Shown piece by piece: positions 1,185 through 15,940 of a stretch of 64,000 nt of DNA. The stretch comes from an uncultured Pelagibacteraceae bacterium (GTDB taxonomy: Bacteria > Pseudomonadota > Alphaproteobacteria > Pelagibacterales > Pelagibacteraceae). Each line of letters begins with the position of its first letter. Within the stretch, counting starts at the first letter, position 1. The position numbers and the translations under genes were made by a program. The DNA lies in the NCBI GenBank assembly GCA_902633585.1, contig CACPGZ010000001.1, positions 1 to 64,000 of the forward strand, written 5' to 3'. The notes below the pieces were generated by a model. The model made no database searches and was not told the origin of the DNA. It was given only the letters and a program-made list of their open reading frames with translations.

Positions 1185-1972
1185 TAACTAGATTATTTTT
1201 TTTAATAGTCATCTTTTTTCCAACTAATTTAATTGCAATCGAATTTAACGGAAAATTTTTACAAGGTCATTATATTATAGGAAAAACCGATCCATCTTCT
1301 CAAATAATTATAGATAAAAAAAAAGTTAGAGTTTCGAAAGATGGTTATTTTGTCTTTGGGATCGACCGTGATAGAAAATTTGATTTAACAATTACTAAAA
1401 TCACTAGTGGAAAAAGTGAAAAAGTTATAAAAAAAGTACTTAAAAGAAAATATAATATTCAAAGGATTGATGGCTTAGAGGAAAGTAAAGTCACACCCCC
1501 TGAATCGGTTTATAAAAGAATTAAAGAGGAAAATAATAGAATTGGAAAAGCAAGAGCAATAAACTCTGATTTACCCTTCTTTAAAAATCAATTCGTTATG
1601 CCTGTTAAGGGAATAATAAGTGGAGTTTATGGAAGCCAGAGAATTTTAAATGGTAAACCAAAATGGCCCCACTATGGAATTGATATTGCTGCAAAAAAAG
1701 GAACAATGATTAAGTCATCAGCAACTGGTGTTGTAACAATGGCAGAGGATGATCTTTATTATACTGGTGGTACAATTATTATGGATCATGGACATGGAAT
1801 TTCTACAATTTATTCACATCTTGAAAACGTGATGGTGTCTGTTGGTGATAAAATTAATCAAGGAGATATCATTGGAACAGTTGGATCTACTGGTAGATCA
1901 ACTGGTCCACACCTAGATTTCAGAGTAAATTGGTTTCAAACTAGGCTTGATCCAATGTCTTTGTTAAACTGA
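1169..1972 (+). CDS. M23-family (LytM-type) metallopeptidase, secreted
   Basis: An N-terminal hydrophobic signal segment (about residues 7-24) is followed by a lysine-rich region and a C-terminal M23 domain (about 140-267). The zinc/catalytic positions are H168 and D172 (HYGID), H217 (YSHL) and the last motif GPHLDF. The usual HxH is therefore H248-x-D250, with Asp where a second zinc-binding His normally sits. This substitution is, to my recollection, seen in other proteobacterial M23 proteins, so activity is uncertain rather than excluded. Expected role is cell-wall peptide cleavage or activation of an amidase in the periplasm. It overlaps the SDR gene. Confidence 0.88.
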   Translation: MDSKIITRLFFLIVIFFPTNLIAIEFNGKFLQGHYIIGKTDPSSQIIIDKKKVRVSKDGYFVFGIDRDRKFDLTITKITSGKSEKVIKKVLKRKYNIQRIDGLEESKVTPPESVYKRIKEENNRIGKARAINSDLPFFKNQFVMPVKGIISGVYGSQRILNGKPKWPHYGIDIAAKKGTMIKSSATGVVTMAEDDLYYTGGTIIMDHGHGISTIYSHLENVMVSVGDKINQGDIIGTVGSTGRSTGPHLDFRVNWFQTRLDPMSLLN

Positions 1973-1986
1973 CAGAGTATATTAAA

Positions 1987-2136
1987 ATGATAAAAAAGTT
2001 TAAAAATTTATTATCAGAAAGTAAATGGGGTAAATATATTCTGGTTGGGGGATTTACTTTTTTTTTGATAAAAGGTTTAGTTTGGTTAATAGTTTTCCTT
2101 ATCGCTGGTTTTAGTTTGATAAATCTTGGATCGTAA
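1987..2136 (+). CDS. Small membrane protein, 49 aa
   Basis: ATG start 14 bases after the M23 gene, stop TAA at 2134. The product begins with a basic amphipathic stretch (MIKKFKNLLSESKWGKY) followed by one or two hydrophobic helices with FLIKGLVWLIVFLIAG. No family recognised. The compact spacing and clear membrane topology make it more likely to be a real gene than chance. Function unknown. Confidence 0.55.
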   Translation: MIKKFKNLLSESKWGKYILVGGFTFFLIKGLVWLIVFLIAGFSLINLGS

Positions 2137-2170
2137 AATATAGTTTATAAAAAATATTATATTAAATATT

Positions 2171-2941
2171 ATGAGTTCATTAATAGAAAAAACATCAAAT
2201 AAGTTGGTTAAAGCTTTTCTTAAAAACAAGATTATTGCACCATTGCCTAGAAAGTTTACAAAAAAACTTACTGAGGCAAATAAATTTAGAATGCTTTGTG
2301 AGAGTAAAGTTAAAAAACCAATTATAGGTTACAAAGCTGGAGGAACCGGAATTCCAGTGATGAAAAAATTAAAAGAAAAAGAACCATTTTACGCATCTGT
2401 TTATAAAGATAATTTTTTAAAAAGCGGTAGAAGTGTAAAGATTAGTAAAACCACTTTTGGCATTGAGCTGGAAGTTTGCTATTTAATTAAAAAATCTTTT
2501 TTTAATTCTAAATCAGTGGTCACAATGAGAAATATCGCAAAATTTATATCTCATATGGCTCCTTGTATTGAGATTGTGGGTTATAGACAGAGAAAAAAAG
2601 GAATTACCTCATTTGGAGATTTAAGTAGCGATTTTGGAGCTAATGTTAAGTTTTTGATCGGTCAAAAGAAAAAGTATAAAAAAATAAATATCGGAAATTT
2701 AAAAACTAATATTTCAAACAAAAAAACAAAACAAAATATAAATGGTAATACTAGTGCAGTTTTTATTAATCCATTAAACTCATTAAGATTTGTTTTGAAT
2801 AAAATTAAAAAAGATAAATTAAATTTAAATAAAAATTTTTATGTATTTACAGGATCTACTGTAGGAGTTGTTCCAATTGGTAAAGGCCTTTATACAGGTA
2901 AGATAGATAAATTAGGGTCTGTTAAAACTATAATTAGGTAA
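2171..2941 (+). CDS. 2-keto-4-pentenoate hydratase / MhpD-like family protein
   Basis: 256 aa, about the normal length for the hydratase/decarboxylase branch of the fumarylacetoacetate hydrolase superfamily. Diagnostic segments are GYKAGGTG near residue 55, where related enzymes have GYKxGLT, FGIELEVCYLI around 95 carrying the ExE metal-binding pattern, and the C-terminal FTGSTVGVVPIGKG. Known relatives hydrate 2-oxo-pent-4-enoate-type acids in aromatic catabolism. No other aromatic-pathway genes are adjacent, so the real substrate is open. Confidence 0.72.
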   Translation: MSSLIEKTSNKLVKAFLKNKIIAPLPRKFTKKLTEANKFRMLCESKVKKPIIGYKAGGTGIPVMKKLKEKEPFYASVYKDNFLKSGRSVKISKTTFGIELEVCYLIKKSFFNSKSVVTMRNIAKFISHMAPCIEIVGYRQRKKGITSFGDLSSDFGANVKFLIGQKKKYKKINIGNLKTNISNKKTKQNINGNTSAVFINPLNSLRFVLNKIKKDKLNLNKNFYVFTGSTVGVVPIGKGLYTGKIDKLGSVKTIIR

Positions 2942-2944
2942 AAA

Positions 2945-3067
2945 GTGAAAACATTTATACTTTTGGTTTTGATGTTTGTTGTTGTATGGGTATTGTTCAG
3001 ACCTATTACTCAAAAAGAAATTGATAGATATAATAACAAAGACAATAGACCAAACTTAGATTTATAA
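2945..3067 (+). CDS. Tiny single-pass membrane peptide, 40 aa (GTG start)
   Basis: A GTG-initiated frame starts 3 bases after the hydratase stop. It encodes one hydrophobic helix (FILLVLMFVVVWVLF) and a polar tail rich in Asp/Asn/Lys. Small bitopic proteins like this are common in streamlined marine alphaproteobacteria. No homolog recognised; no strong ribosome-binding site, so translation would depend on coupling to the hydratase gene. Confidence 0.42.
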   Translation: MKTFILLVLMFVVVWVLFRPITQKEIDRYNNKDNRPNLDL

Positions 3068-3130
3068 CAAAATCGATTGCTTAACATTTTTTTTTAAAGT
3101 AGATTCTTTAAACCATATCTCATGGTGAAA

Positions 3131-3176
3131 AAGAGGCCGATATCGCATCGGTTAAAAGCGAGTTTTGGAAAACTAA
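3131..3176 (+). promoter_or_regulatory. Two-hairpin leader before the 63-aa ORF
   Basis: Immediately 5' of an AAGGAG ribosome-binding site (3178-3183) lie two stem-loops: CCGAT/ATCGG (3137-3141 with 3147-3151, extendable by G-T pairs) and AGTTT/AAACT (3161-3165 with 3170-3174). The local base composition is less AT-biased than the flanks. The tight packing against the ribosome-binding site suggests a structured 5' leader. No known riboswitch class recognised. Confidence 0.4.
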
Positions 3177-3188
3177 CAAGGAGAGTGT

Positions 3189-3380
3189 ATGAAAAGAATG
3201 CACAGAATACTGAGTTTGTTTAGCCGAGGCTCAAAAAATGCAAGGCTAAATCAACTTATGTTTCGAAATGCAAAAACCGTAAGTGCTAACGATAATGGCA
3301 CTAGTGGTTATTTAGTGAAGACAGGAAAAAATAGTGGAAAAGTCCTGGGACACATAAGAAGTCGGTCTAAAGTTATTTAA
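3189..3380 (+). CDS. Unrecognised basic 63-aa protein
   Basis: ATG is preceded at 5 bases by AAGGAG, one of the clearer ribosome-binding sites in the window. The product is Arg/Lys/Ser/Asn-rich with no membrane segment. Around 3284-3297 the DNA encodes SANDN and resembles the resume site of tmRNA (T and A at -5/-4, then GCT AAC GAT AAT). However, the frame stays open 27 more codons, does not end in Ala-Ala, and no tRNA-like domain is visible. I therefore keep it as a protein gene and flag the resemblance. It sits directly upstream of the first copy of the 18-bp repeat element. Confidence 0.5.
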   Translation: MKRMHRILSLFSRGSKNARLNQLMFRNAKTVSANDNGTSGYLVKTGKNSGKVLGHIRSRSKVI

Positions 3381-3390
3381 GTACACTGGG

Positions 3391-3446
3391 GTATGGGGGC
3401 ACCTGGCAACAGAACGCCCCTTATTAAAGGATTCCCTCATCCATAC
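3391..3446 (+). repeat. 18-bp element copy 1, inside a nested stem structure
   Basis: GGCAACAGAACGCCCCTT occupies 3405-3422. GGGGC at 3396-3400 can pair with GCCCC at 3416-3420 around it, and GTATG (3391-3395) with CATAC (3442-3446) can close an outer stem. The same element recurs at 4679, 5003 and 5846 in the same orientation. It lies 24 bases after the 63-aa ORF, so a transcription-terminator role is an alternative, but the conserved bases are in the loop as well as the stem. Confidence 0.6.
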
Positions 3447-3465
3447 TCATTTTCTAAAAATAAAG

Positions 3466-3498
3466 TTCAATGAAGGTTCAATGAAGTTTCAATGAAGT
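3466..3498 (+). repeat. Three head-to-tail 11-bp repeats TTCAATGAAGK
   Basis: Units at 3466-3476, 3477-3487 and 3488-3498 are TTCAATGAAG followed by G, T and T. The phase is exactly 11 bp. The same word appears three times left of element copy 2 (4571-4636), so it marks both inner ends of the block between copies 1 and 2. Confidence 0.8.
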
Positions 3499-3554
3499 TT
3501 GAAAACAATATTAATTAAGAATTTTAATCTTTTACCAACAATGCACCAACACAA

Positions 3555-3746
3555 TTAGAATAAGTGAAATTGTTTTTTTTCATTAGTTCTTTTTTCTACA
3601 GAGATAATATTTTCCATCGTTTTTAAAGAGTCCTTTTTTTTTAGAAAACTTGAGCAACAAAAAAAGTAATCTATACCTACATCTATTGAGAATTTTTTTA
3701 ATTTTTTGTGCTCAATATTAAAATTTATCTCATACTTATTCTTCAT
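3555..3746 (-). CDS. Unrecognised 63-aa protein
   Basis: The frame begins just downstream of the stop of the 266-aa gene on the same strand, so the two look like a small operon. The product is Lys/Phe-rich, soluble in appearance, with a CC pair in the middle and no recognised motif. It may be a genuine short gene of the accessory block or a remnant. Low confidence. Confidence 0.35.
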   Translation of the reverse strand: MKNKYEINFNIEHKKLKKFSIDVGIDYFFCCSSFLKKKDSLKTMENIISVEKRTNEKKQFHLF

Positions 3747-3748
3747 AA

Positions 3749-4549
3749 TTAAATTTTATATTTAATTAATTCTTTATTATAATTTGATAAATCCTGATTA
3801 ATTGATTTTTCACTAAACGAGATATTTTTATTTTGAAACGTAGATAATAGATAAAATTTGTTTTGCTCAAAAATATTATACAGATCTGCTACACCATGAG
3901 AATATCCTTTAACAATATTTGGAGTGCAAAAAAGATGCATTTCCTTTAATTCTTTTGATAAATAAATTTGGACATAAGGTTCTTCGTAAGGTTGCACAAA
4001 TTGATCATATGGATCCTTGCTTTTTTTAAACCTTTTTTCATAACCTGATATCAGTAAGTTTAAGTGCTTTGAGTAGTTGGATGTAATTTTTTTTATACTC
4101 ATATCTTTATATTTGTCTGATAGTTTTAGAAAATCTTTAGACTCTGAGGTAATATAAAAAAAACCATCCATTATTAAATTGTGCCTTTCAAGTTGATTAT
4201 TAAAAAATTCTGCTTTTTGTTGTTTAAATGCAATAATAGATTCCTTTATAATCTTATGACTCTCTGAAGTTAATTTTAATTGTATTTTTCTCGCCTCTTT
4301 TCTCATTTTTTCTTCAGATAGTTTTTTAAGTTCATCTATTTTTTTTTGTGTAAATACAACTGATTTACATGCCTCTGCAATTCCCATAGCATAAGACATT
4401 AAATAACCATTTTGATATGAAAGTTGAACCATGTCGCCCACTTCTTTAGTGAACTCGTTATCTTTACCGCTTTGTTTAAAACAATAATTTCTATACAAAC
4501 TTAATAAAATTTTAAGATACGTTTTTAAAGTATCATTATAAATCTTCAT
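3749..4549 (-). CDS. Unrecognised 266-aa protein in accessory block
   Basis: No signal peptide or membrane helix is evident. The protein is largely helical with a charged, probably coiled-coil centre (about residues 85-125, KKIDELKKLSEEKMRKEARK) and a Pro/Tyr-rich patch DQFVQPYEEPYVQIY near 185. I do not recognise the family; it is not an integrase or transposase. It is the main gene of the block bounded by element copies 1 and 2 and is flanked on both sides by TTCAATGAAGT repeats. It could be cargo of a small mobile unit. Existence as a gene is likely, function unknown. Confidence 0.6.
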   Translation of the reverse strand: MKIYNDTLKTYLKILLSLYRNYCFKQSGKDNEFTKEVGDMVQLSYQNGYLMSYAMGIAEACKSVVFTQKKIDELKKLSEEKMRKEARKIQLKLTSESHKIIKESIIAFKQQKAEFFNNQLERHNLIMDGFFYITSESKDFLKLSDKYKDMSIKKITSNYSKHLNLLISGYEKRFKKSKDPYDQFVQPYEEPYVQIYLSKELKEMHLFCTPNIVKGYSHGVADLYNIFEQNKFYLLSTFQNKNISFSEKSINQDLSNYNKELIKYKI

Positions 4550-4570
4550 ATTTTAATTTTACCCCAATTC

Positions 4571-4636
4571 TCAATGAAGTCTAGAAACAGAGTTTTTGAA
4601 AAAAGGTCAAACTTTCAATGAAGTCTTCAATGAAGT
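4571..4636 (+). repeat. Three copies of TCAATGAAGT left of element copy 2
   Basis: TCAATGAAGT at 4571-4580, then TTCAATGAAGT at 4614-4624 and 4626-4636 (12-bp phase). Same word as at 3466-3498. The position is also just upstream of the 266-aa gene, so an operator function cannot be excluded. Confidence 0.75.
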
Positions 4637-4675
4637 ATTCCAAATACCTAGGTATTTTGATATGATTTGGTTCTC

Positions 4676-4696
4676 GGGGGACACAGAACGCCCCTT
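4676..4696 (+). repeat. 18-bp element copy 2
   Basis: GGGGGACACAGAACGCCCCTT: identical to copies 1 and 3 over ACAGAACGCCCCTT (4683-4696), diverged to the left. GGGG and CCCC can pair across a 10-base loop. The last base is the first base of the reverse-strand stop codon of the following 63-aa membrane gene. Confidence 0.7.
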
Positions 4697-4887
4697 TAAA
4701 ATCTATTTCTGTTTTTTTTCTTCTCTTTTCTCCACAGAATAAAAAATAAAAGAATTAATCCTGGTTGTAAAATTACAAAAATAACAATATTTGCCAAGTT
4801 GTAACCCATACCAGTAACTGTTCCGATATATTGAAGGACTCCAACACACCACCAAAAAAATTGATCAATCATTTGATAAGTATACAA
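4696..4887 (-). CDS. Small two-helix membrane protein, 63 aa
   Basis: Two hydrophobic helices (about residues 8-25 and 32-52, the second IVIFVILQPGLILLFFILW) are followed by a basic tail RKEKKKNRNRF. It is the only gene between element copies 2 and 3, with its stop codon touching copy 2 and three TTCAACGAAGT repeats just upstream of its start. No family recognised. Confidence 0.5.
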   Translation of the reverse strand: MYTYQMIDQFFWWCVGVLQYIGTVTGMGYNLANIVIFVILQPGLILLFFILWRKEKKKNRNRF

Positions 4888-4889
4888 TT

Positions 4890-4957
4890 TTCAACGAAGT
4901 TAAAAAGCAATTCGTGGACAAAACAATTGAAACTGTCAACGAAGTTTTCAACGAAGT
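4890..4957 (+). repeat. Three copies of TCAACGAAGT left of element copy 3
   Basis: TTCAACGAAGT at 4890-4900, GTCAACGAAGT at 4935-4945 and TTCAACGAAGT at 4947-4957 (12-bp phase for the last two). It differs from the repeats of the neighbouring block by one base (C for T), consistently in all three copies, as if each block carried its own version. Confidence 0.75.
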
Positions 4958-5001
4958 AACTAGATTAAGTAAGCAAATATGCTAATTTCTTATCTAATGC
5001 C

Positions 5002-5020
5002 GGGCAACAGAACGCCCCTT
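5002..5020 (+). repeat. 18-bp element copy 3
   Basis: GGCAACAGAACGCCCCTT at 5003-5020 is identical to copy 1 over all 18 bases. GGGC (5002-5005) pairs with GCCC around the loop AACAGAAC. Confidence 0.8.
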
Positions 5021-5076
5021 CCTATTTCGTGTTTCTCTGATCATAGCAACATTAATTTAAAGTTCTAAATAGTTTT

Positions 5077-5118
5077 GACGACTAAAGGACGACTAGAAAG
5101 AGATAATTTTTATTATCT
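5077..5118 (+). repeat. GACGACTA tandem repeat and hairpin right of element copy 3
   Basis: GACGACTAAAG (5077-5087) and GACGACTAGAA (5088-5098) are in exact 11-bp phase. Directly after them AGATAAT/ATTATCT (5101-5107 with 5112-5118) forms a 7-bp stem overlapping the stop of the outer-membrane gene, which could end its minus-strand transcript. Confidence 0.6.
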
Positions 5119-5728
5119 AAAATTTATATCTTAACGATATAGATTTGATTTTATTATCAAACATATCGGGATTATATCTGCCACCTGCCGGTGTTGTTCC
5201 ACTTCCTCCCTTTACTATACCAAATTCAGACTGTTTAAAAACTATTTCATAGTTTCCCATTCCATAACCTAAAATTATTTGGTGAGCAAAGTCTGTATTA
5301 TCATTATCCTTGTCAAATGGATCATTACTAAATCTAGAGTTTGTGTCTACATTTGTATGACCCAAGCCTAATCCAAGACCGGCTAATATATATCCATTAG
5401 AACCAAATTCAGATGTGTACATAATATTTTCCATTATTGAAAAAGTTGTAACATCAACACTTATTCTACGTTCTAATTTTTGAGTGACTTCTCCATAATA
5501 AGAAAACTCTGTTTCTAAAGCAAGGTTGCCTGATCTAGTTCCAAATCCATACGAGATAACCGAGCCTTCGTCATCTGGGTCTGCATCACCATATGTGAAC
5601 CCACCAATATCATGCGGATTGTCAGCAACGTTTTTGGTTAAACCTAGTGAACCATATCTATAACTTTCACTATGAGCGTTTAAAGCAAAAATTAAACTTA
5701 AAAGGCTTATTGTTAGAATTTTTTTCAC
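5117..5728 (-). CDS. Small outer-membrane beta-barrel protein
   Basis: I place the start at the GTG at 5728 because AAGGA lies 7 bases upstream and the product then begins with a clean signal peptide (VKKILTISLLSLIFALNAHSE). An upstream ATG at 5764 would only add 12 residues before it. The mature part has alternating strands with Gly/aromatic residues and ends in SLRYKF, the terminal aromatic typical of barrel insertion. About 203 aa suggests an 8-strand OmpX/OmpW-like barrel. It is the cargo between element copies 3 and 4, so it may be an exchangeable surface protein. Confidence 0.75.
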   Translation of the reverse strand: MKKILTISLLSLIFALNAHSESYRYGSLGLTKNVADNPHDIGGFTYGDADPDDEGSVISYGFGTRSGNLALETEFSYYGEVTQKLERRISVDVTTFSIMENIMYTSEFGSNGYILAGLGLGLGHTNVDTNSRFSNDPFDKDNDNTDFAHQIILGYGMGNYEIVFKQSEFGIVKGGSGTTPAGGRYNPDMFDNKIKSISLRYKF

Positions 5729-5783
5729 AAGAAAATCCTTACACGGAAAATACACAGGAATCATTCCTAATTTTCGAAAGTTT

Positions 5784-5819
5784 CTAGATAAGATTATATC
5801 AATTTTGTTGCTAGATAAG
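5784..5819 (+). repeat. Paired CTAGATAAG left of element copy 4
   Basis: CTAGATAAG occurs at 5784-5792 and 5811-5819, in the stretch between the outer-membrane gene and element copy 4. The first copy is preceded by TT and the second by TG. It is weaker than the other repeat sets. Confidence 0.5.
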
Positions 5820-5840
5820 GGTTATAGAAGAAGGGTTTGG

Positions 5841-5865
5841 AATGTGGCAACTGAACGCCCCCATT
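5841..5865 (+). repeat. 18-bp element copy 4, abutting the sodB stop
   Basis: GGCAACTGAACGCCCCCA at 5846-5863 differs from copies 1 and 3 at three bases. AATG (5841-5844) and CATT (5862-5865) can close an outer stem around GGC/GCC. The element ends exactly where the reverse-strand sodB stop codon (5864-5866) begins. Confidence 0.6.
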
Positions 5866-6457
5866 AATCTAGTTGAGATTCAACAAATTCCCAATTAATC
5901 AATTTCTCGTAAAAGTTCTCTAAGTACTCAGGTCTTTTATTTTTGTAATCTACATAATAAGAATGTTCCCACACATCACATGCCAAAATAGGTTTCATAT
6001 TTTGAATTAATGTATTCTCAGCATTAGGTGTTTTACTTATCACTAATTTACCACTGTTAATTGATAACCAACACCACCCAGATCCGAATTGGGTAATACC
6101 TGCTTGTGTAAATTTTTTTTTAAATTCATTTGTACTACCAAAATCTGTTTCAATTCTTTTTTTTAGCTTATCAGGCATTGAACCCCCGCCATTTGGTTTC
6201 ATACATTTCCAGAACAATATATGGTTCCAATGTTGACTAGCATTATTAAAAATTCCAATTTTAGATTTATCTTTTGAAGAGTTAATAATAATTTCTTCTA
6301 AGGACATTTTGGACATATCAGTATCTTTAATTAGATTATTAAGATTAGTTATATAAGTTTGGTGGTGTTTTCCATGATGAAGATCGAGAGTCTCTTCAGA
6401 CATTATTGGAGATAAAGCAGTTTTAGAGTAGTCTAATTTAGGTAGTTCAAATGACAT
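5864..6457 (-). CDS. sodB: Superoxide dismutase, iron type
   Basis: 197 aa, full length. Metal ligands H27 (in HHGKHH), H79 (QHWNH), D161 and H165 (DVWEH) are all present. Q75 in NNASQHWNH is the Gln position that marks Fe-type rather than Mn-type enzymes. It converts superoxide to peroxide and oxygen in the cytosol. The start ATG at 6457 gives the standard N-terminus (SFELPKLDY). It stands alone, 132 bases downstream of xsc on the same strand. A role protecting against superoxide from sulfite autoxidation is conceivable but only inference. Confidence 0.97.
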   Translation of the reverse strand: MSFELPKLDYSKTALSPIMSEETLDLHHGKHHQTYITNLNNLIKDTDMSKMSLEEIIINSSKDKSKIGIFNNASQHWNHILFWKCMKPNGGGSMPDKLKKRIETDFGSTNEFKKKFTQAGITQFGSGWCWLSINSGKLVISKTPNAENTLIQNMKPILACDVWEHSYYVDYKNKRPEYLENFYEKLINWEFVESQLD

Positions 6458-6540
6458 ATATATACATATAATTTATAATTATCTTTTATAAATGATTATA
6501 ATGACGCAAATATTTATAATATGGAGAAAAGTTATAAATT

Positions 6541-6557
6541 ATGCCTAATGGAGGCAT
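6541..6557 (-). terminator. Stem-loop 3' of xsc
   Basis: ATGCCT/AGGCAT (6541-6546 with 6552-6557) lies 33 bases past the xsc stop on the minus strand. No clean T-run follows, so termination strength is doubtful. Confidence 0.4.
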
Positions 6558-6589
6558 CTAGCAAATTAACCTCAATCCTAAAATTTAAC

Positions 6590-8374
6590 TTAAGAAGTTA
6601 AAGAGGGTTGCTTTTTCATATCTTCTTTTTTTATACCAGCAACTCTTACTGGTTTTTTCATCGCATCTCTTCTAAATGGTTCACCTAACTCTTGATTTAA
6701 TATTACTTCAATAAAAGTCGTGATTCCCTTTTTTTGATCTTCACAAGATTGTTTAATAGCGGCAGTAGTTTCATCCATTGTTTTTACAGTTACACCTTTC
6801 AATCCACATGCACTCGCTACTTTCGCATAACTTAATTCAGGATCTAGCTCAGTTCCAATGAAATTATTATCGAACCAAAGTGTAGTATTTCTCTTTTCCG
6901 CTCCCCATTGATAATTTCTGAAAATCACCATAGTGATTGCCGGCCACTCTTCTCTAGCACAAGAGCTCATCTCATTCATGCTAATTCCAAATGCGCCATC
7001 TCCTGCAAAGCCTATTACCGGTGTATCAGGGCATCCAATTTTAGCACCTAAGATTGAGGGAAAACCATAACCACAAGGTCCAAACAGACCGGGAGCTAAA
7101 TATTTTCTTGGCTTCTCAAAAGTTGGGTAAGCATTTCCAATCGCGCAATTATTTCCAATATCACTTGAGATTATTACATCCTCTGGCATTCCAGCTTGTA
7201 TAGCTCTCCATGCCTGTCTTGGTGACATTCTGTCTTTATCTCTTTCTCTAGCCTCTTTATTCCAAACAGTCCCTTCATCATCGTCTTCATGATCTAAACT
7301 TGATAATTTTTGTAACCAAGCAGATTTCGTTTGGTGAATTAAATCCTTTCTTTTTTGTCTATCAGTATCTCCTGCATTTGAAGCAAGCTTTTCAAAAATT
7401 TGTTGAGCAACTAATTTTGCATCACCACTTATCCCTACAGTAACTTTCTTAGTTAAACCAATTCTATCTGGATTAATATCAACCTGAATTATATTTGCAT
7501 TCTTTGGCCAATAATCAATTCCATAACCTGGTAAAGTAGAAAAAGGATTCAATCTAGTACCTAACGCTAAAACTACATCAGCTTTAGAAATTAATTCCAT
7601 TGCTGCTTTTGATCCATTATATCCCAATGGTCCAACTGCCAAAGGGTGACTTCCTGGAAAACTGTCATTGTGCTGATAACCAGAACAAACTGGTGAATCT
7701 AATTTTTCAGCAAGTTTTTTTGTTTCATCAATGGCGCCACCGATAACAACACCTGCTCCTGACAAAATAACTGGAAATTTTGCTTTTGATAAAAGATCAG
7801 CAGCTTTCGAAATCGCATCTGCACCTCCACCTTGTCTTTCTAGTCTTACAATTGGTGGAAGTTCAATATCAATAACCTGTGTCCAGTAGTCTCTTGGAAC
7901 GTTTATTTGAGCTGGTGCGGAACCTCTAATTGCTTTTTCAATTACTCTGTTAAGAACTTCTGCCATTCTTGATGGATCTCTTACTTCCTCTTGGTAACAA
8001 ACCATATCTTTGAATAAATTCATTTGCTCAACTTCTTGAAAACCACCTTGACCCATAGTTTTATTTGCAGCTTGTGGTGTAACTAATAATAATGGAGTGT
8101 GGTTCCAGTAAGCTGTTTTGATTGGTGTTACTAAACCAGTAATACCAGGTCCATTTTGTGCAATGACCATGGACATTTTTCCTGTAGATCTCGTGTAGCC
8201 ATCTGCAATTAATCCACCGTTTGTTTCGTGAGCAACATCCCAAAAAGTTATACCTGCATCTGGAAAAATATCTGAGATTGGCATAAACGCTGATCCAATA
8301 ATTCCAAAAGCATGTTCAATGCCATGCATTTGTAAAACTTTAACAAAAGCTTCCTCTGTTGTCATTTTAGTCAT
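6590..8374 (-). CDS. xsc: Sulfoacetaldehyde acetyltransferase (Xsc)
   Basis: 594-aa thiamine-diphosphate enzyme of the Xsc family, splitting sulfoacetaldehyde with phosphate into acetyl phosphate and sulfite. The catalytic Glu of the PYR domain is E50 (WDVAHE). The central domain starts near 190, and the diphosphate/Mg site shows GFAGDGAFGISMNE near residue 460, followed by FRNYQWGAEKRNTTLW, typical of Xsc rather than acetolactate synthase. No phosphotransacetylase or taurine genes are adjacent. It is divergent from suyAB across a 110-base AT-rich gap in which I see no clear operator. Base composition is more even than the polysaccharide genes, as expected for a conserved enzyme. Confidence 0.93.
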   Translation of the reverse strand: MTKMTTEEAFVKVLQMHGIEHAFGIIGSAFMPISDIFPDAGITFWDVAHETNGGLIADGYTRSTGKMSMVIAQNGPGITGLVTPIKTAYWNHTPLLLVTPQAANKTMGQGGFQEVEQMNLFKDMVCYQEEVRDPSRMAEVLNRVIEKAIRGSAPAQINVPRDYWTQVIDIELPPIVRLERQGGGADAISKAADLLSKAKFPVILSGAGVVIGGAIDETKKLAEKLDSPVCSGYQHNDSFPGSHPLAVGPLGYNGSKAAMELISKADVVLALGTRLNPFSTLPGYGIDYWPKNANIIQVDINPDRIGLTKKVTVGISGDAKLVAQQIFEKLASNAGDTDRQKRKDLIHQTKSAWLQKLSSLDHEDDDEGTVWNKEARERDKDRMSPRQAWRAIQAGMPEDVIISSDIGNNCAIGNAYPTFEKPRKYLAPGLFGPCGYGFPSILGAKIGCPDTPVIGFAGDGAFGISMNEMSSCAREEWPAITMVIFRNYQWGAEKRNTTLWFDNNFIGTELDPELSYAKVASACGLKGVTVKTMDETTAAIKQSCEDQKKGITTFIEVILNQELGEPFRRDAMKKPVRVAGIKKEDMKKQPSLTS

Positions 8375-8484
8375 GGTTTATCTTTCTTAATCAGCGTCTT
8401 AATATTATATATAAAATTTAATTGTTAATTTTTGCGATTAATATATAAGATTTTGGAAATTTCAAATAAACAATTCGACACGAT

Positions 8485-8769
8485 ATGACTACTGAAATTA
8501 TAATCCACGACCAAAAAGACAATGTAGGTGTTGTAGTAATTGAAAAAATTACCCCAAAACAAGAGTGCACCTGCTGGATTATGGAGAATGATAGCTCAAC
8601 AAGTATTCAATCAAAGGATGAAATTCCTTTAGGACACAAAATAGCAATGAATGACCTAAACGAGGGTGATACGATTCTTAAATATGGACATGACATTGGT
8701 AAAGTGGTCAAACCGATCAAAAAAGGTGAACACGTTCATGTTCATAATGTGAAAACAAAAAAGTGGTAA
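8485..8769 (+). CDS. suyA: (R)-sulfolactate sulfo-lyase, small subunit
   Basis: 94 aa with the SAF/AFP-like fold of the UxaA N-terminal family: LGHKIAMNDLNEGDTILKYGHDIG near residues 49-74 is the family signature. With SuyB it eliminates sulfite from 3-sulfolactate, leaving pyruvate. Linkage to a SuyB-like partner and to xsc favours the sulfonate enzyme over altronate dehydratase. The stop is followed three bases later by the suyB ATG. Confidence 0.85.
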   Translation: MTTEIIIHDQKDNVGVVVIEKITPKQECTCWIMENDSSTSIQSKDEIPLGHKIAMNDLNEGDTILKYGHDIGKVVKPIKKGEHVHVHNVKTKKW

Positions 8770-8772
8770 TTG

Positions 8773-9939
8773 ATGAAAATTCCAAAAAGTTTTTTAGGCT
8801 ATAAAAGGGAAAATGGAAGATCTGGAACAAGAAATCATGTAATCATACTCCCAGTTGATGATATTTCGAATGCATGTGCAGAAGCAGTTTCAAATAATAT
8901 TAAAGGCACAATCGCTTTACCTCATTCTTATGGAAGACTGCAATTTGGAGCAGATTTAGAGTTACATTTTAGAACGATGATTGGAACTGGAAGTAACCCA
9001 AATGTTGCTGCGGTTATTGTAATTGGCATAGAGCCAAAGTGGACAAAAAAAATTGTTGATGGAATTGCAAAAACCGGCAAACCTGTTGAAGGTTTTCATA
9101 TTGAGCGAACTGGAGACATTGGAACAGTTATGAAAGCCTCTAAGAAAGCTCAAGAATTTGTAATGTGGGCTTCTGAAAAACAAAGAGAAGAATGTCCGAT
9201 TAGTGATTTATGGATTTCAGTTAAATGCGGCGAGTCTGATACAACTTCAGGATTAGCATCTAATCCAACAGTTGGAAACTTAATGGATAAGCTAGAACCA
9301 TTAGGTGTCCATTTATGTTTTGGTGAGACATCAGAACTTACAGGGGCAGAAAAAGTTTGTGCAACAAGAGGAGCTACTAAAGAAGCCTCAGATAAATTCA
9401 TGAAAACTTGGAGTGCATATAATGATTTTATTTTAAAAGAGGCAACAGATGATCTTTCTGAGAGCCAACCAACAGCAGGAAACATTGCTGGAGGTTTAAC
9501 AACTATTGAAGAAAAAGCTTTTGGAAACTTTCAAAAAATTGGTAATTGTAAATTTGTAGATGTTTTAGAACCAGCAGAAGAACCTAAAAAAGGTAAAGGA
9601 TTGTATTTTATGGATACATCCTCAGCAGCAGCTGAATGTGTAACGCTACAAGCTGCAGCAGGTTTTAATATTCATTTATTTCCAACTGGTCAAGGCAATA
9701 TTGTGGGAAACCCTATAGAGCCTGTTGTCAAGTTAACAGCAAACCCGTTAACTGCAAAAAGTATGAGTGAACATGTTGATTGTGATGTTTCAAAAATCCT
9801 TTCACGAGAAATGAATTTATCAGAGGCGGGAGATAAACTTATTGAAACAACTTTAAGAGTTGCTAATGGAAGATTAACTTGTGCTGAAGCTTTGGGACAT
9901 AAAGAGTTTGTTATGACTAAACTTTATAGAAGTGCATAA
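8773..9939 (+). CDS. suyB: (R)-sulfolactate sulfo-lyase, large subunit
   Basis: 388 aa from the ATG at 8773 (a TTG lies one codon earlier). The product begins with the UxaA C-terminal family motif [21 protein letters not shown] and carries conserved cysteines in [11 protein letters not shown], probably for an iron centre. The C-terminal half has [18 protein letters not shown]. Together with SuyA it yields pyruvate and sulfite. Other members dehydrate altronate or galactarate; the neighbours (xsc, two sulfur-oxyanion-type transporters) argue for sulfolactate. Cytosolic. Confidence 0.87.
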
Positions 9940-9953
9940 TTATTTTATTAAGA

Positions 9954-11027
9954 ATGGTATATAAAAAATACTTGGTAGTAGTTCCAGGTATAATTCTATC
10001 ATTTATTCTTTATTCTCTTTCTCATGGTTTTAATAATATTATTGGAGTAGAGCTTTTGGGTTATAGCAAAAGTCCAATATCTACAGCAATGATAGCAATT
10101 TTATTAGGAATTTTTTTTGGTAATTTTTTTAAAATTCGAGACAGTTTTCAAAAGGGTTTAGATTTTAGTAGAGACTACATATTGAAACTTGGGATCATTT
10201 GTCTAGGGATACAATTAAAGCCTTTTGAATTTTTAGATTTTGGAAAAATTGCGATTCCACTAATATTAATTTGTATAATTAGTGTTTTAATCGCTATTAA
10301 GTTATTAGTAAAAAAACTTAAAATACCAACTAGAATGGCTTATCTAATATCAATCGGAAGTACCGTTTGTGGAACTACTGCAATAATGGCTACTGCACCA
10401 GTAATCAAAGCTAGTAAAAATGAGGTTTCCTATGCTATTGCAAATATTACTTTATTTGGAATATTATCAATGTTTCTTTATCCTTACTTTGCAAATTTTT
10501 ATTTTGATGGAAACTCTTTATATGCAGGCCTTTTTTTAGGAACTGCTATACATGAGACCTCTCAAGTTGCTGCAGCTGGACTAATCTATGATCAACAATT
10601 TAATAGCCCTGAAACATTAAACATTGCTACTGTGACAAAGCTTATAAGAAATACTTTTTTAATAATAATGATACCACTTTTTGCTATTCTTTATAATAGA
10701 GGTCAGGCAAAAGAGAGGGGTTATTCTATTTTGAATATATTTCCCTATTTCGTTTTAGGTTTTATAGGAATGATAATTTTAAGAAATATTGGTGATTATA
10801 TTTTTTTAGCTGATAGTGGTAAAAATTGGCTTGAGACAATTAATTTTATTAAAGCTGCTTCTAAAATTTTCTTAACTATGGCTATGGCTGCAATAGGTTT
10901 GTCAACAAACTTGAAGGATATTAAAGATATGGGACACAAACCATTTGTTGTGGGATTTGTTGCAATGTTTACTGTGGGAGTCGTTAGTATTGTAACAATT
11001 GAAATGTATTTAAAATTCTTTACTTAA
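9954..11027 (+). CDS. YeiH/UPF0324-family transporter (putative sulfur oxyanion exporter)
   Basis: 357-aa protein with about 10 membrane helices. Family landmarks are GIICLGIQLKP near 76, SIGSTVCGTTAIMATAPVIKA near 130, GTAIHETSQVAAAG near 195 and the C-terminal MAMAAIGLSTNLKD. Databases often label the family putative sulfate exporter; direct proof is sparse to my knowledge. The position 14 bases after suyB on the same strand suggests it removes sulfite or sulfate made by the sulfo-lyase. Its 3' end overlaps the convergent TauE-like gene by 8 bases. Confidence 0.8.
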   Translation: MVYKKYLVVVPGIILSFILYSLSHGFNNIIGVELLGYSKSPISTAMIAILLGIFFGNFFKIRDSFQKGLDFSRDYILKLGIICLGIQLKPFEFLDFGKIAIPLILICIISVLIAIKLLVKKLKIPTRMAYLISIGSTVCGTTAIMATAPVIKASKNEVSYAIANITLFGILSMFLYPYFANFYFDGNSLYAGLFLGTAIHETSQVAAAGLIYDQQFNSPETLNIATVTKLIRNTFLIIMIPLFAILYNRGQAKERGYSILNIFPYFVLGFIGMIILRNIGDYIFLADSGKNWLETINFIKAASKIFLTMAMAAIGLSTNLKDIKDMGHKPFVVGFVAMFTVGVVSIVTIEMYLKFFT

Positions 11028-12114
11028 TTTGTTTTACTGTTTTTTTAAAATATTTCTCTCTAAACTTTGAAATTGATCTTCTAATAAACGCTGCAGCAAT
11101 TCCCAAAAAAACAGCAAACAAAATAGAAAACAATCCATAAAAGAATGGCATATCCTCTGAAAACTCTTTAATAAATTTTGAAAAAAAGTTTAAATCTGCT
11201 GATCCAGCAGATATTGTTTTCTTTTGTATCTCTTCAGCAAAAAAAGTATCATAAGCTATTACTATCCCAACAATTAATAATAAAATTGCTAATAAAGCTT
11301 TTAATCCAGAGCTGTCAATCTGTTCACCAAGTTTTTGACCTACTTGAACTCCAACTATTGATCCGATAACTAACATTAAGACCAACATTAGATCTATAGA
11401 ACCGTAATTAATTGAATGAAGAAATGTAACTATTACACTAACAAAAATCGTTACAAATAATGAGGTTCCAGGCACTAATTTTGTTGGCATCTTAATAATA
11501 TAAATCATTGCGGGTACTAGAATAAACGCACCACCTATACCCATTATAGCTGCGATAAAACCAACAATTAATCCAATTATGATAGGTGTAAATATGCTTT
11601 CATACAATTTAGATTTTGGAAATCTCATTCTAAAAGGAAGCCCATGGATCCAGTAATGCACATGTAATTTTTTCTTCTCTACAATATTTTTTTTGGCTTT
11701 ATCAATTTCACCTAAACTTTCCACCAACATCAAAGTCCCAATTATTGCAAGAATATACATGTAGGCTAAAGAAATAACTGTATCAATCTTTCCTATATCT
11801 TGAAAATAAGTGAAAGTAAAAATACCTAATATAGTTCCTATTGTTCCACCAATTACAATTATTAATCCAATTTTATAATCCAAGGTGTTTTTTAACCAAT
11901 GAGTGGTAGATCCAGATACAGAAGTTGCCAAAATGTTATTAGCCTCATTAGCAACTGCATAAGCCGGCGGAACACCCATGAAAATTAAAAAGGGTGTCAT
12001 TAAAAAACCACCTCCTACTCCAAACAAACCTGAAAGAACACCAACAATGGCACTTAGCAAAAGTATTTCAACCGGATTAATAAATACTTGAGCTATAGGT
12101 AAAAATACATCCAT
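11020..12114 (-). CDS. TauE/SafE-family sulfite/organosulfonate exporter
   Basis: 364 aa with two homologous halves, each carrying the Gly-rich TauE/SafE signature (SGLFGVGGGFLMTP near residue 28; AIMGIGGAFILVP near 190), 8-9 membrane helices and a basic cytosolic linker around 140-170. Family members export sulfite or sulfoacetate during sulfonate degradation, which fits the xsc/suyAB neighbours. It converges on the YeiH-type gene with an 8-base overlap. Confidence 0.85.
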   Translation of the reverse strand: MDVFLPIAQVFINPVEILLLSAIVGVLSGLFGVGGGFLMTPFLIFMGVPPAYAVANEANNILATSVSGSTTHWLKNTLDYKIGLIIVIGGTIGTILGIFTFTYFQDIGKIDTVISLAYMYILAIIGTLMLVESLGEIDKAKKNIVEKKKLHVHYWIHGLPFRMRFPKSKLYESIFTPIIIGLIVGFIAAIMGIGGAFILVPAMIYIIKMPTKLVPGTSLFVTIFVSVIVTFLHSINYGSIDLMLVLMLVIGSIVGVQVGQKLGEQIDSSGLKALLAILLLIVGIVIAYDTFFAEEIQKKTISAGSADLNFFSKFIKEFSEDMPFFYGLFSILFAVFLGIAAAFIRRSISKFREKYFKKTVKQIK

Positions 12115-12154
12115 AAATAATTAATTTATAACTGAATATTACTGATATATATTG

Positions 12155-12415
12155 ATGTCAATAAAGACAAATACATTCCAAATGAAAGCTTTTTTAATTG
12201 CCTTAATTATAAACATTATAATTTTCGACACAGTCATTGGTGCTTTGGTTAACTGTATCAACGGAAAATGTGAATTTACTAATAGTTTTCATTACAAAAC
12301 TGCAAGTACATTTTGTTTACAAACTTTAACATTTGAGGATGTTGAAACAGATTATTCCTTTTTTACAATTTTAAGAACTGGAGAACAGTGTCAGGTTTAT
12401 AAATCTGAAGATTAA
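12155..12415 (+). CDS. Small secreted or membrane-anchored Cys-containing protein
   Basis: 86 aa from ATG 12155; an internal ATG at 12182 (MKAFLIALIINIIIF) may be the real start and would give a more usual signal sequence. After the hydrophobic segment come four cysteines (NCINGKCEF, STFCLQ, GEQCQVY), suggesting one or two disulfides in the periplasm. No family recognised. Confidence 0.5.
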   Translation: MSIKTNTFQMKAFLIALIINIIIFDTVIGALVNCINGKCEFTNSFHYKTASTFCLQTLTFEDVETDYSFFTILRTGEQCQVYKSED

Positions 12416-12418
12416 AAA

Positions 12419-13288
12419 CTATTTAAAAATTTCATTAATCTTTTCATCTAAACTATCAGTCTCAGATTTAATATCTTCACTATCTACATTAGCCTTTGAA
12501 ATATCGTTTAATACTTTTGAATTAATATTATCTACTTCCACTTTATCTTTCACAAATTGAGTACCAACAATATTAGTTTTCGTTAAAGAATTATTCAATT
12601 CATGAATTTGTTTGAAAATTTCGTTTTTCTCATTGTCAACAGAATTAAAATTATTTTTAACAATTTCGTACTTTTTTTTAATACTCATAACTTCACTCGA
12701 CAATCTTGTATTATCTTCTTGGTAAAATTTGATTTGATCGGACAATTCTAAAATTTGAGATTTAATCTTTAATGTTTCGGATTGTTCTTTTTTTAAAATT
12801 TCAATATCATTTTGTAAATTTTTATTATGTTTAATAAATCGAGCGATTGTATCTTTTAGCTCATTATTATTAGTAATAAGTTTTTTATTGTAATCAGATA
12901 AGATTTTTAACTTGTTATCAAGATTGTTCATTCCAGATTTCAAGTTTTCATTATTTTGCCTATGTTTTTCTATTAATAGTTTTTGATTTTTTAGAATCTC
13001 TGATTGTATTTTGTTTCTATCGAAAAAGATTTTTTCATCTTTTAGTTTTTTTATTTGTAATTCCTGATTATTAATTTTTTTTGAAATTTCTGAAGTTTTT
13101 TCTTTTACACTATCCTCTATTGTTTGAGCACTTTTCTTAATTTCAGAAAATTCTTTATCTATTATATTTTGCTTATCATAATTTAAATCGTTTTTTTTAC
13201 TTAAAGCAGATTCTGCTTCCTCAATTAAATTTAATGTCTCATCTGGAAGATCATTACTTTTTGGAGAAGAACTCTTACTATCATCCAT
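12419..13288 (-). CDS. Coiled-coil protein, paralog of the gene at 14027
   Basis: 289 aa, almost entirely charged heptad-type helix between an acidic N-terminus and a C-terminal LDEKINEIF tail. No signal or membrane segment. From about residue 150 it aligns with the coiled-coil protein two genes upstream: RFIKHNKNLQ against RYIVNTKKLQ, IKFYQEDNTRLSSE against IKFYQDENVRLSSE, IHELNNSL against IRELNRSI, and both end in an LDE..IF tail. The pair arose by duplication and may form hetero-oligomeric filaments. Function unknown. Confidence 0.65.
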   Translation of the reverse strand: MDDSKSSSPKSNDLPDETLNLIEEAESALSKKNDLNYDKQNIIDKEFSEIKKSAQTIEDSVKEKTSEISKKINNQELQIKKLKDEKIFFDRNKIQSEILKNQKLLIEKHRQNNENLKSGMNNLDNKLKILSDYNKKLITNNNELKDTIARFIKHNKNLQNDIEILKKEQSETLKIKSQILELSDQIKFYQEDNTRLSSEVMSIKKKYEIVKNNFNSVDNEKNEIFKQIHELNNSLTKTNIVGTQFVKDKVEVDNINSKVLNDISKANVDSEDIKSETDSLDEKINEIFK

Positions 13289-13309
13289 AAGTCAAAAATT
13301 TATACTTGT

Positions 13310-13951
13310 TTATTCAATAGAACCTGGAGAAAAAAATCTAAATTTTTTTACTTTTTTTTCCTCTTTTTTATCGTTTTTTTTAATCTCTGATTTATTAAAA
13401 TTATTACGCAGATTTACAACCTCGCTACCATTGACTTCGATTTTTTGCTGCCTTTGTATTGTACTATTATTATTTTCATTGCTATAAGAATTAATTCTTG
13501 ATTCTATGTAATTTGTTTTATCTTCTATATCTTTGTTTTTTGACTCAATATTTATTGAGGTTGTTCTAATCTCTTTCTTTATTTTATTAACTTTTTTATC
13601 TAGTTCGGTCTCTTCTTTAGTTAGTTGCTCTGTTTGTTTTAAACGGTTTTCAAATGCACTAACTTTATCCTCTAATTCTTTTTGTTTAATTAATTCCTCT
13701 TTTTTGACATTTAAATCATTTTCTAAATTGGATATTTTTTCTTGATGCTCTTTTTTTCTTAAATTAATTTTAGTTTCCGTTTTTTCTAAATCATTTGTTA
13801 ATTCTACTAATCTGCTTTCAAGGTATTGAGTTCTGGTTTCATATATCCATTGCTCATTGCAGTGCTTACACTTAATTAGTTTTCCTTCCAGTTCATGACC
13901 TTCATTCATTATATAAAACTTTTGTTTGCAATTTTTACAATGGATCATCAT
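13310..13951 (-). CDS. Zinc-ribbon plus coiled-coil protein
   Basis: 213 aa. The N-terminus holds a zinc ribbon (CKNCKQKFYI followed by CKHCNEQW; four Cys in two CxxC knuckles within residues 5-36), similar to the MJ0042/YgiT-like ribbons found at the start of alphaproteobacterial membrane or envelope proteins. Residues 45-145 are coiled coil, and the tail is Lys-rich, ending KKFRFFSPGSIE. No membrane helix. It lies between the two paralogous coiled-coil genes on the same strand, so the three probably act together. Confidence 0.62.
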   Translation of the reverse strand: MMIHCKNCKQKFYIMNEGHELEGKLIKCKHCNEQWIYETRTQYLESRLVELTNDLEKTETKINLRKKEHQEKISNLENDLNVKKEELIKQKELEDKVSAFENRLKQTEQLTKEETELDKKVNKIKKEIRTTSINIESKNKDIEDKTNYIESRINSYSNENNNSTIQRQQKIEVNGSEVVNLRNNFNKSEIKKNDKKEEKKVKKFRFFSPGSIE

Positions 13952-14026
13952 ATTTATTTTTAAATTTTAGCCTTATAAAATTAATGAGTCAACGACTACG
14001 ATTAATCAAATAGTACTTGATATTAC

Positions 14027-15136: not shown

Positions 15137-15221
15137 AAATTTTTAAGAATCATTTATTTATATTTATAATCTATGATTTTTTATATTCAAGCAGTGGTTG
15201 AATTAAGTTATTTACGGAGTT

Positions 15222-15935
15222 TTAGTTTGTAATAAAAGTCCTACTACTATCTGAGTCTGTTAAACATACGCATGATAATTTCCCCGAAAAATAGCATCCA
15301 CTATCAACATTTATTCTAAAAGGATCACTTATTATATTCTCCTCTGGCGTATGCCCATGAACAATAATTTTTTCAGATTTAAAATCTTTGCTAAAAAATT
15401 CTCTAGATCTTGACCATAAATAATCTTCTTTACTTTGTTCAGATAACTTTTTTCTAGGATTAATTCCTGCATGCACAAATAGATGATTTTTTGTTGAATA
15501 TATTAATTCTAAATTTTTAAAAAAATCTATATGGCTTTCTTCAATATTATTTAAAAAATGATCTCTTAACCTATCTATAACTTTATCTTCGAAACCATCT
15601 TTAATAAATTCTACGATCTCGATATTATAACTTCTAAATGTTTGATCTGCTCCAAATTCAAGCCAATTTTTAATATTATTATTTTCATTGATTAAAAAAT
15701 CGACCAAAAATTGATCATGATTTCCGAGTAAATTAATTATATTAATTTTATCTTTTTTTAATTTTAGGATTTGATCAATAACTTGTTTAGAATTTTTTCC
15801 TCTATCAATATAATCACCAAGATAAACTATTATATCATTTTTTGGGTCAAATTTATCATATGTAAGGATATTTTTGTGAAGTGATGTTAATTGTGATAAA
15901 CATCCGTGTATATCCCCAATCGCAAATATATTCAT
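15222..15935 (-). CDS. PPP-family metallophosphoesterase (Ser/Thr phosphatase-like)
   Basis: 237 aa with all PPP signatures: GDIHG (7-11), GDYIDRG near 42, GNHD near 71, HAG near 176 and HGHTP near 200. Members are protein phosphatases or ApaH-like nucleotide hydrolases with a two-metal centre. It lies 5 bases downstream of the glycosyl-phosphotransferase gene and two genes from a BY-kinase, so it could oppose protein phosphorylation in the polysaccharide system; low-molecular-weight or PHP phosphatases usually do this, so that is speculation. Confidence 0.85.
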   Translation of the reverse strand: MNIFAIGDIHGCLSQLTSLHKNILTYDKFDPKNDIIVYLGDYIDRGKNSKQVIDQILKLKKDKINIINLLGNHDQFLVDFLINENNNIKNWLEFGADQTFRSYNIEIVEFIKDGFEDKVIDRLRDHFLNNIEESHIDFFKNLELIYSTKNHLFVHAGINPRKKLSEQSKEDYLWSRSREFFSKDFKSEKIIVHGHTPEENIISDPFRINVDSGCYFSGKLSCVCLTDSDSSRTFITN

Positions 15936-15940
15936 TAAAT

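Follow-up and report, generated by a model that had tools for sequence, protein, structure and literature searches.

The tandem array and its cores

The window analysed here, i.e., the whole stretch of 64,000 nucleotides from an uncultured Pelagibacteraceae (SAR11) bacterium, carries a tandem array of three small blocks, which are separated by copies of one short element and have repeated words, spaced mostly 11 or 12 base pairs (bp) apart, just inside their ends. These words, the blocks that they bound and their likely relation to integrases are the subject of this work. The inter-block element is the 3' end of the circularly permuted alphaproteobacterial (SAR11) transfer-messenger RNA (tmRNA; gene ssrA). 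With up to three mismatches, its core occurs at 3405, 4679, 5003, and 5846, four matches where 0.02 are expected. Core 1 (3396-3420, plus strand), taken as the left attachment site (attL) of block 1, is a copy of the permuted tmRNA 3' end. Core 2 (4676-4694, plus strand), the corresponding right site (attR), is the variant GGGGGACACAGAACGCCCC, which is common to the same-word elements L304, L305, and L306 of relatives. Core 3 (5003-5018, plus strand) reads GGCAACAGAACGCCCC, and core 4 (5846-5861, plus strand), the right boundary of the array, reads GGCAACTGAACGCCCC and adjoins a superoxide dismutase gene. A short core thus stands as a direct repeat at both block ends.

No intact tmRNA was detected in the window, which gave a single weak match of 32.6 bits ending at the first core. 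The tmRNA of the same genome is located on contig C39 (RF01849, 221.4 bits), where it adjoins an open reading frame (ORF) read by eye as thyX; its end is the core, followed by three words. Allowing two mismatches, GGCAACAGAACGCCCC has four copies in the window and one further copy in the genome, on C39. An ORF of 63 amino acids (3189-3424) with a tmRNA-like tail of about 50 bp lies ahead of the first core. It has no Pfam match. In L127 and L266 it recurs with the tmRNA core on one side and a second core on the other, and in L205 it comes after a pnp-like gene (by eye).

The cargo genes of the three blocks are encoded on the minus strand. The product of block 1 (3749-4549) has 266 amino acids and a best Pfam match of E=0.01, below the cut-off. 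Block 2 (4696-4872) encodes a small protein of 58 amino acids, hydrophobic by eye, and block 3 (5117-5764) an outer-membrane beta-barrel-like protein of 215 amino acids (OMP_b-brl, E=2.6e-4, below the cut-off). Blocks 1-3 possess both attL and attR, and no recombinase was recognised inside them.

The words lie on the plus strand. At the left (P') arm of block 1 (3466-3498), three tandem copies of TTCAATGAAG start at 3466, 3477, and 3488, with a spacing of 11 bp and at +61/+72/+83 from the core; the copy at 3466 ends in GG instead of GT. The right (P) arm of the same block (4570-4636) comprises CTCAATGAAGT at 4570 and TTCAATGAAGT at 4614 and 4626, at -109/-65/-53 from the next core. In block 2, the right arm (4890-4957) is made of TTCAACGAAGT at 4890, GTCAACGAAGT at 4935, and again TTCAACGAAGT at 4947, at -113/-68/-56. 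Block 3 has a candidate left arm (5077-5094) formed by GACGACT at 5077 and 5088, with 11-bp spacing and at +74/+85, and a right-end pair (5784-5819) of CTAGATAAG at 5784 and 5811, whose spacing of 27 bp and location off the arm positions leave its role uncertain; therefore, no word is common to both ends of this block. The first-pass annotation had described word triplets at both inner ends of block 1, a threefold word at the right end of block 2, and a different pair at each end of block 3. All three were recovered, with the right array of block 1 starting at 4570 and not at 4571. The word versions are named here as TTCAATGAAGT (block 1) and TTCAACGAAGT (block 2).

With at most one mismatch, the word has 12 matches in the window against 4.93 expected (shuffle maximum 10, n=100); nine of them lie inside 3466-4957, and the remaining three are isolated. 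A genome-wide count, which the first-pass annotation had proposed as a check, found eight exact copies of TTCAAYGAAGT in the assembly of 911,506 bp against one copy of the reversed pattern. Six of the eight belong to the window array, one is found on C39 beside the real tmRNA, and one, on C23, is isolated within a coding frame. Across the family, the tandem word pair is present in 20 of 397 genomes, the window genome counted, and the reversed control in none (0/397).

Word positions, shared ends and an empty site

An exact scan of the GTDB genome collection yielded at least 120 stretches, and most of the matches listed were from Pelagibacteraceae, among them the close relative L074 (94% identity over 534 bp). 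The exact 14-mer is present in 314 of the 397 family genomes, with up to eight copies (G245). The core is located about 142-146 bp past the tmRNA motif in nearly all loci that have both, and the extra copies are on the same strand. Tandem insertion at the ssrA 3' end is seen in relatives, and the window array begins at a core copy away from an intact tmRNA. Because the loci were found through the core, its conservation is partly circular, although it starts at about -16 in the tmRNA copies and is high in the internal copies only between about 0 and +15. Since the core definition was lenient (up to three mismatches, or ACAGAACGCCC with C or T), some block boundaries may be false. Eleven loci considered by eye to be chance or non-SAR11 matches (L034, L039, L045, L047, L051, L057, L058, L078, L081, L088, and L092) were omitted from the counts of arm positions, end sharing, and attC motifs.

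The positions of the words were analysed in a larger set of 282 cores from 148 loci, scoring exact tandem 7-mers at a distance of 10-12 bp. After the core, 29 of 179 non-redundant flanks contained such a tandem, and in 28 of these its start fell between +58 and +82; before the core, it was found in 29 of 100 flanks, with 27 starts between -100 and -58. Control windows placed 200-350 bp off gave 10/204 and 4/137. There are 24 distinct first 7-mers per side, or about 20 words by eye, some being frames of one word. Right arms show two layouts, either three words near -112/-67/-55, or two to three words from about -98 to -85. The words thus vary between blocks while their positions relative to the core stay fixed.

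Sharing of words between the two ends of a block was also frequent. An exact 7-mer common to both arm windows was detected in 29 of 82 non-redundant blocks, whereas shuffling of the right ends yielded 9.9 such blocks on average and at most 20 (n=2000), and within-block control windows shared a 7-mer in 3 of 55 cases. An earlier cut of the data had given 26/65 blocks (shuffled mean 5.45, maximum 14, n=1000). The same word inside both ends is accordingly a feature of block 1, of its same-word relatives, and of these 29 blocks, and not of blocks 2 and 3 taken alone.

A sister genome (G292, locus L256) provides the empty site. Its DNA is 99.7% identical to window positions 1901-3422 and is joined directly to a stretch that is 95.4% identical to 5000-7000, so that blocks 1 and 2 are missing exactly, core to core (1598 bp). 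Similarly, judging by ORF order, a 2-kilobase (kb) core-to-core block of L269 is missing from L268 at a related site.

The tandem word surrounds different genes in different genomes. The cargo encodes 266 amino acids in the window, 192 and 93 in L304, 182 and 236 in L305, 209 in L306, and 112 and 304 in L303; the same-word element of L302 is a 7.5-kb set of five genes, one of them DNA methylase-like by eye. The ends of window block 1, L304, L305, and L306 are 78-91% identical, and their cargo windows 37-53%. L302 and L303 make up another set, and identity between its ends and those of the first set is 59-70%. As the ends are alike and the cargo is unlike, the word marks an element family and not a gene. 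A co-variation of word version with cargo, which the first-pass annotation had raised, was not borne out by this comparison of L302-L306, in which the word follows the element ends and the cargo differs freely. The 58-amino-acid protein of block 2 recurs in L302 (8517-8693) right after the same-word element, differing by one residue.

The block 2 word beside an integrase gene

In genome G332 (L320), a 9.4-kb element at the tmRNA carries TTCAACGAAGT at +62/+74/+85 on the left and words on the right at -113/-68/-56, the latter positions being identical to those of 4890, 4935, and 4947 in block 2. Alignment of its right end with window 4890-5002 gave 85 identities in 112 aligned bases, and 58 in 78 after removal of the words (score 84, against a maximum of 62 for shuffled sequence). 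The last gene of this element, at its right end, encodes a protein of 420 amino acids that matches a PHROG integrase family (1.8e-13). The Pfam matches, SAM-like (8e-4) and Phage_integrase (2e-3), are both below the cut-off. Among four aligned homologues, Arg245, Arg357, and Tyr389 are invariant, and other canonical positions differ, e.g., Tyr354, at a position that is usually His. An AlphaFold2 model with a mean predicted local distance difference test (pLDDT) score of 72 gave 39 Foldseek matches at E<=0.001, all of them tyrosine recombinases, and VIA-align placed it at Z 15.7 and a root-mean-square deviation (rmsd) of 3.0 over 173 residues against a staphylococcal integrase. As modelled, the protein has a tyrosine recombinase fold. 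At the N-terminus, the model shows three strands and a helix at residues 25-78 with low confidence (pLDDT about 50-75), which we take to be the arm-binding topology of the Tn916 and lambda integrases; one lambda integrase alignment spans model residues 12-396 at an rmsd of 17.4. The same element encodes a resolvase-like protein of 225 amino acids, away from attL.

Other homologues are also found next to words. In G281, a full homologue (37% identity) is followed by ACTATGTACCT twice and then by a core. In G316, G051, and G319, a C-terminal piece of the integrase gene stands ahead of other words and a core; the piece in G174 is followed by a word pair and a terminator-like hairpin. No clear integrase remnant was seen in the window.

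The association of words and integrases extends beyond the tmRNA. The DNA upstream of mobile-type integrases was read at 14 distinct loci, and an exact tandem word was found between the attachment site and the integrase start in six of them. The words are CCGGCACA, TGTCGTCG, TGACACA, ATGACGA, and GAGCACAGT, as 11-bp pairs, and GGTCAC as a triple at 10-11 bp; the attachment sites are five tRNA genes and, for GAGCACAGT (L170/L225), a glycine riboswitch. When the far ends of five elements were checked, the word stood again in tandem in L220, L221, and L225, and as a single or weaker copy in L224 and L218. At the tRNA-Met gene of L220, an integrase element and an adjoining integrase-less cassette have TGACACA at both ends of each.

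Several other sources of an integrase were considered. Matches to PF00589 occur in 302 of 397 genomes, mostly one each, and most of the frames listed have about 307-327 amino acids. This core SAR11 recombinase was discarded as the cassette integrase: in the loci read it lies beside ogt-like and glycan genes (by eye) with no core in the stretch, and no tandem 8-mer adjoins it in the four loci tested (L181, L184, L185, and L187). It may act as an accessory factor. A search of IMG/VR for a helper phage through the core pattern returned 14 contigs, eight with a phage tmRNA and six unrelated, mostly richer in GC; no attachment site or integrase was seen beside the core in these 14. The same search with the tandem word returned five viral contigs, with all five pairs within coding frames, and neither route was retained. 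The record of pelagiphage HTVC010P lists no integrase, and a tblastn comparison of one tRNA-element integrase with the phage collection gave distant relatives only, all below 60% identity.

Interpretation and alternative explanations

The cores, the fixed distances of the words from them, the partial sharing of words between block ends, including both ends of block 1, the exact empty site, and the occurrence of the same word and right end beside an integrase gene are observed directly. Together they indicate that the words are most likely arm-type (P/P') tyrosine-integrase sites of the attL and attR that bound cassettes inserted at the tmRNA end, a reading to which a probability of roughly 0.87 is given on the basis of the sequence comparisons. 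Of the two possibilities named by the first-pass annotation, recombinase arm sites are the one favoured by the both-end words of block 1, the constant core distances, the differing words, the empty site, and the block 2 word beside an integrase.

According to this interpretation, each block would be a small integrated element whose attL and attR cores are direct repeats of the tmRNA 3' end. The words next to these cores, P' on the left and P on the right, would be gripped by the small N-terminal domain of the integrase, while its catalytic domain would cut at the core. Bound to arms and core, the integrase would insert a cassette, in circular form, at the 3' end of the tmRNA; the core that it brings along would restore the RNA gene, and the next insertion would stack on, building a tandem array with the tmRNA intact. 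Elements that lost their integrase, or never had one, could still be moved, provided that a helper matches their words. Since neither block 1 nor block 2 has a recognised integrase, their movement would need supply in trans, e.g., from a relative of the G332 type, and such elements may still be active. Block 1 with TTCAATGAAGT and block 2 with TTCAACGAAGT carry two versions of one word family, which suggests two related integrase specificities. As a tentative extension, less likely than not, SAR11 bacteria might maintain a platform for cassettes that resembles an integron but has no cassette integrase of its own, in which one or a few conserved RNA hairpin cores serve many integrases and the arm word of each cassette names its helper, a phage satellite or a mobile element. 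In that case, the divergence of words at fixed positions would represent a specificity code that prevents the joint excision of neighbouring cassettes.

Several observations weigh against arm-type sites. No exact 7-mer is common to the arm windows in 53 of 82 blocks, the words of block 2 occur at its right end only, and the ends of block 3 carry different words; the unshared blocks and the imperfect blocks 2 and 3 imply that many blocks are eroded, hybrid, or wrongly delimited. Under the strict test, 150 of 179 right flanks and 71 of 100 left flanks lack an exact tandem; the peak windows were fixed when some of these data had already been inspected, and the loci had been found through the core. 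In G292, similarity is lower in the right flank than in the left one, which leaves room for an additional recombination event at that site. As regards the enzyme, none of the loci examined showed a full integrase gene next to TTCAATGAAGT, and the window's own assembly, which is 66% complete, gave no match to PF00589 or to P0002. Of the 397 genomes, 10 contain a homologue of the G332 integrase, in half of the cases reduced to a C-terminal piece, and no tmRNA core was seen near those of G081, G230, and G067 in the stretches examined. Upstream of the mobile-type integrases, three of the 14 loci have imperfect pairs only (L219, L222, and L223), and five have no pair, namely L168 and the 425-amino-acid type of L175, L177, L180, and L182. 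No excised circle, binding, or transfer was observed.

Among the alternatives, the least improbable, although still improbable, is that the words are operators or promoter elements that bind a regulator of the cargo genes, which mostly read toward the tmRNA. By mechanical ORF calls of at least 55 amino acids, 77 of 96 block ORFs are antiparallel to the tmRNA; the words at the right ends of blocks 1 and 2 are immediately upstream of genes on the minus strand, and TTCAATGAA is a near palindrome. However, the word of block 1 is also present at the left end, downstream of the gene, the positions follow the core, and the same word bounds unrelated cargo and abuts integrase genes.

Replication or partition iterons from small episomes trapped in the chromosome, the second possibility raised by the first-pass annotation, are very unlikely. 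Tandem direct repeats of 11/12 bp would suit them, and the G332 element encodes a sliding-clamp-like protein and a protein with a weak, below-cut-off match to Rep_1. Nevertheless, blocks can be as small as 324 bp with one gene for 58 amino acids, and the words are split over both ends, where they keep set distances from the att cores. Pfam revealed no gene for replication or partition in the blocks of the window, which is a weak point of the argument because the 266-amino-acid product has no significant family match.

Integron gene cassettes with attC-like sites would explain the compact, varied, tandem cassettes, and a hairpin below -3 kcal/mol was predicted in 57 of the first 60 internal cores. 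This account is hardly credible, given that the attC motifs RYYYAAC/GTTRRRY were found in 0 of 148 internal cores (in the core stretch only, the cores being chosen by their own sequence), that the core derives from the tmRNA, and that the integrase detected belongs to an element and matches a PHROG of phage integrases. Finally, chance or compositional repeats in AT-rich spacer DNA can be practically dismissed, because, although such DNA yields many weak tandem repeats in the window (38 rows), the word exceeds its expectation, 28 of 29 tandems after the core fall in one 25-bp window, the shuffles never reach the observed sharing, and size-matched windows off the cores give far fewer tandems.

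Relation to known systems

SAR11 bacteria are very abundant in the ocean, have streamlined genomes, and are usually regarded as poor in mobile DNA. One survey reports that genomic islands were not detected in Pelagibacter HTCC1062 and acknowledges hypervariable regions described there earlier (PMC3478194). No report of tmRNA cassettes or arm words in SAR11 was found among the open PMC titles and abstract openings listed. The cassettes may offer SAR11 a compact path to strain-level gene gain, including restriction enzymes and secreted-looking proteins, and the arm words a readable key that pairs integrase-less cassettes with their helper through sequence comparison and a binding assay.

In attachment sites of the lambda, L5, and Tn916 type, the core is flanked on either side by tandem arm sites of about 10-12 bp, which are bound by the N-terminal domain of the integrase. 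The SAR11 arms differ in that they persist without an integrase and display about 20 word versions (by eye) around one core. Cis-mobilizable elements (CIMEs) are flanked by attL and attR, lack their own recombinase, and are expected to be movable by the integrase of a relative. Unlike CIMEs and tandem accretions, the SAR11 blocks have no conjugative parent that was seen, and their size and array length are nearer to gene cassettes. Tycheposons, which occur in marine bacteria, are likewise cargo-bearing elements with a tyrosine recombinase, and they reside at tRNA genes (see also PMC10872708).

A close parallel comes from Dehalococcoides, which has multiple tandem islands with variable cargo downstream of ssrA, bounded by ssrA or by a 20-bp direct repeat of its 3' end, with an integration module in 16 of 31 ssrA islands (McMurdie et al. 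2011, PMC3146451). Both systems share tandem ssrA insertions, short direct repeats, and an integration module that is partly missing. The Dehalococcoides islands rely on a serine recombinase, DsiB, whose six-gene module adjoins attL, whereas the G332 element has a tyrosine integrase at its right end; also unlike them, the SAR11 blocks start from about 0.3 kb, the tmRNA is a permuted, two-piece molecule, and arm words are present at the ends. In other streamlined aquatic bacteria, namely Actinomarinales (PMC7771536) and Methylophilaceae with their additive islands (PMC10872708), small cassettes are inserted at tRNA genes, or the insertions are marked by repeated copies of the terminal 20 bp of such a gene. 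In the portions of these two accounts covered here, no arm words and no link between word and integrase are described, and the SAR11 target is the tmRNA. What look new here are the integrase-less cassettes that keep integrase-specific arm words; tandem ssrA islands were already known elsewhere.

Cargo genes and related elements

The blocks of relatives contain one to a few small genes. In 65 blocks, 96 ORFs of at least 55 amino acids were called, forming 78 sequence clusters. A Pfam scan covered 76 of the 83 ORFs of at least 70 amino acids, and restriction enzymes, DNA methylases, trypsin, rhodanese, and GNAT domains are among the matches from Pfam and PADLOC. Of the 38 Pfam families matched by the 76 cassette proteins, the 25 listed do not include Phage_integrase, and phmmer found no recombinase in the 96 block ORFs, from relatives and the window, when compared with ten SAR11 recombinases (E<=0.01). 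A much larger block was observed in L203 (G117), where 13.7 kb (3463-17116) lie between two cores downstream of the tmRNA, with glycan and sugar-nucleotide genes and no integrase recognised by eye.

Word triplets or pairs are also found without a tmRNA core, beside a terminator-like hairpin, in L308 (2160), L309 (2490 and 3775), L310 (988), and L319 (1317). In this second type of array, a hairpin such as AAAAAGGGCAGTTTTTACTGCCCTTTTTT replaces the tmRNA core, and L331 is built likewise with another word.

Some of the integrase elements described above have further features. In L225 (G003), the element lies within a 48-bp direct repeat (425-472 and 4797-4844) in a glycine riboswitch aptamer, the right copy of which (4787-4874) matches RF00504 with 66 bits. 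This element apparently uses the riboswitch as its attachment site, upstream of a gcvT-like gene (by eye). The elements of L220, L221, L223, and L224 (G078, G190, G029, and G022) occupy a few kb at tRNA genes and encode an integrase and a primase-like protein (by eye); L223 has in addition a gene like that of the terminase small subunit (phrog_51, 1.1e-8). Judging from this gene content, they are candidate phage satellites of SAR11. Marine viral contigs (L137-L140, L143, L144, L146, and L149) were found to encode their own permuted tmRNA, whose 3' end contains the exact attachment core, and phage tmRNA genes could in principle serve as insertion targets too.

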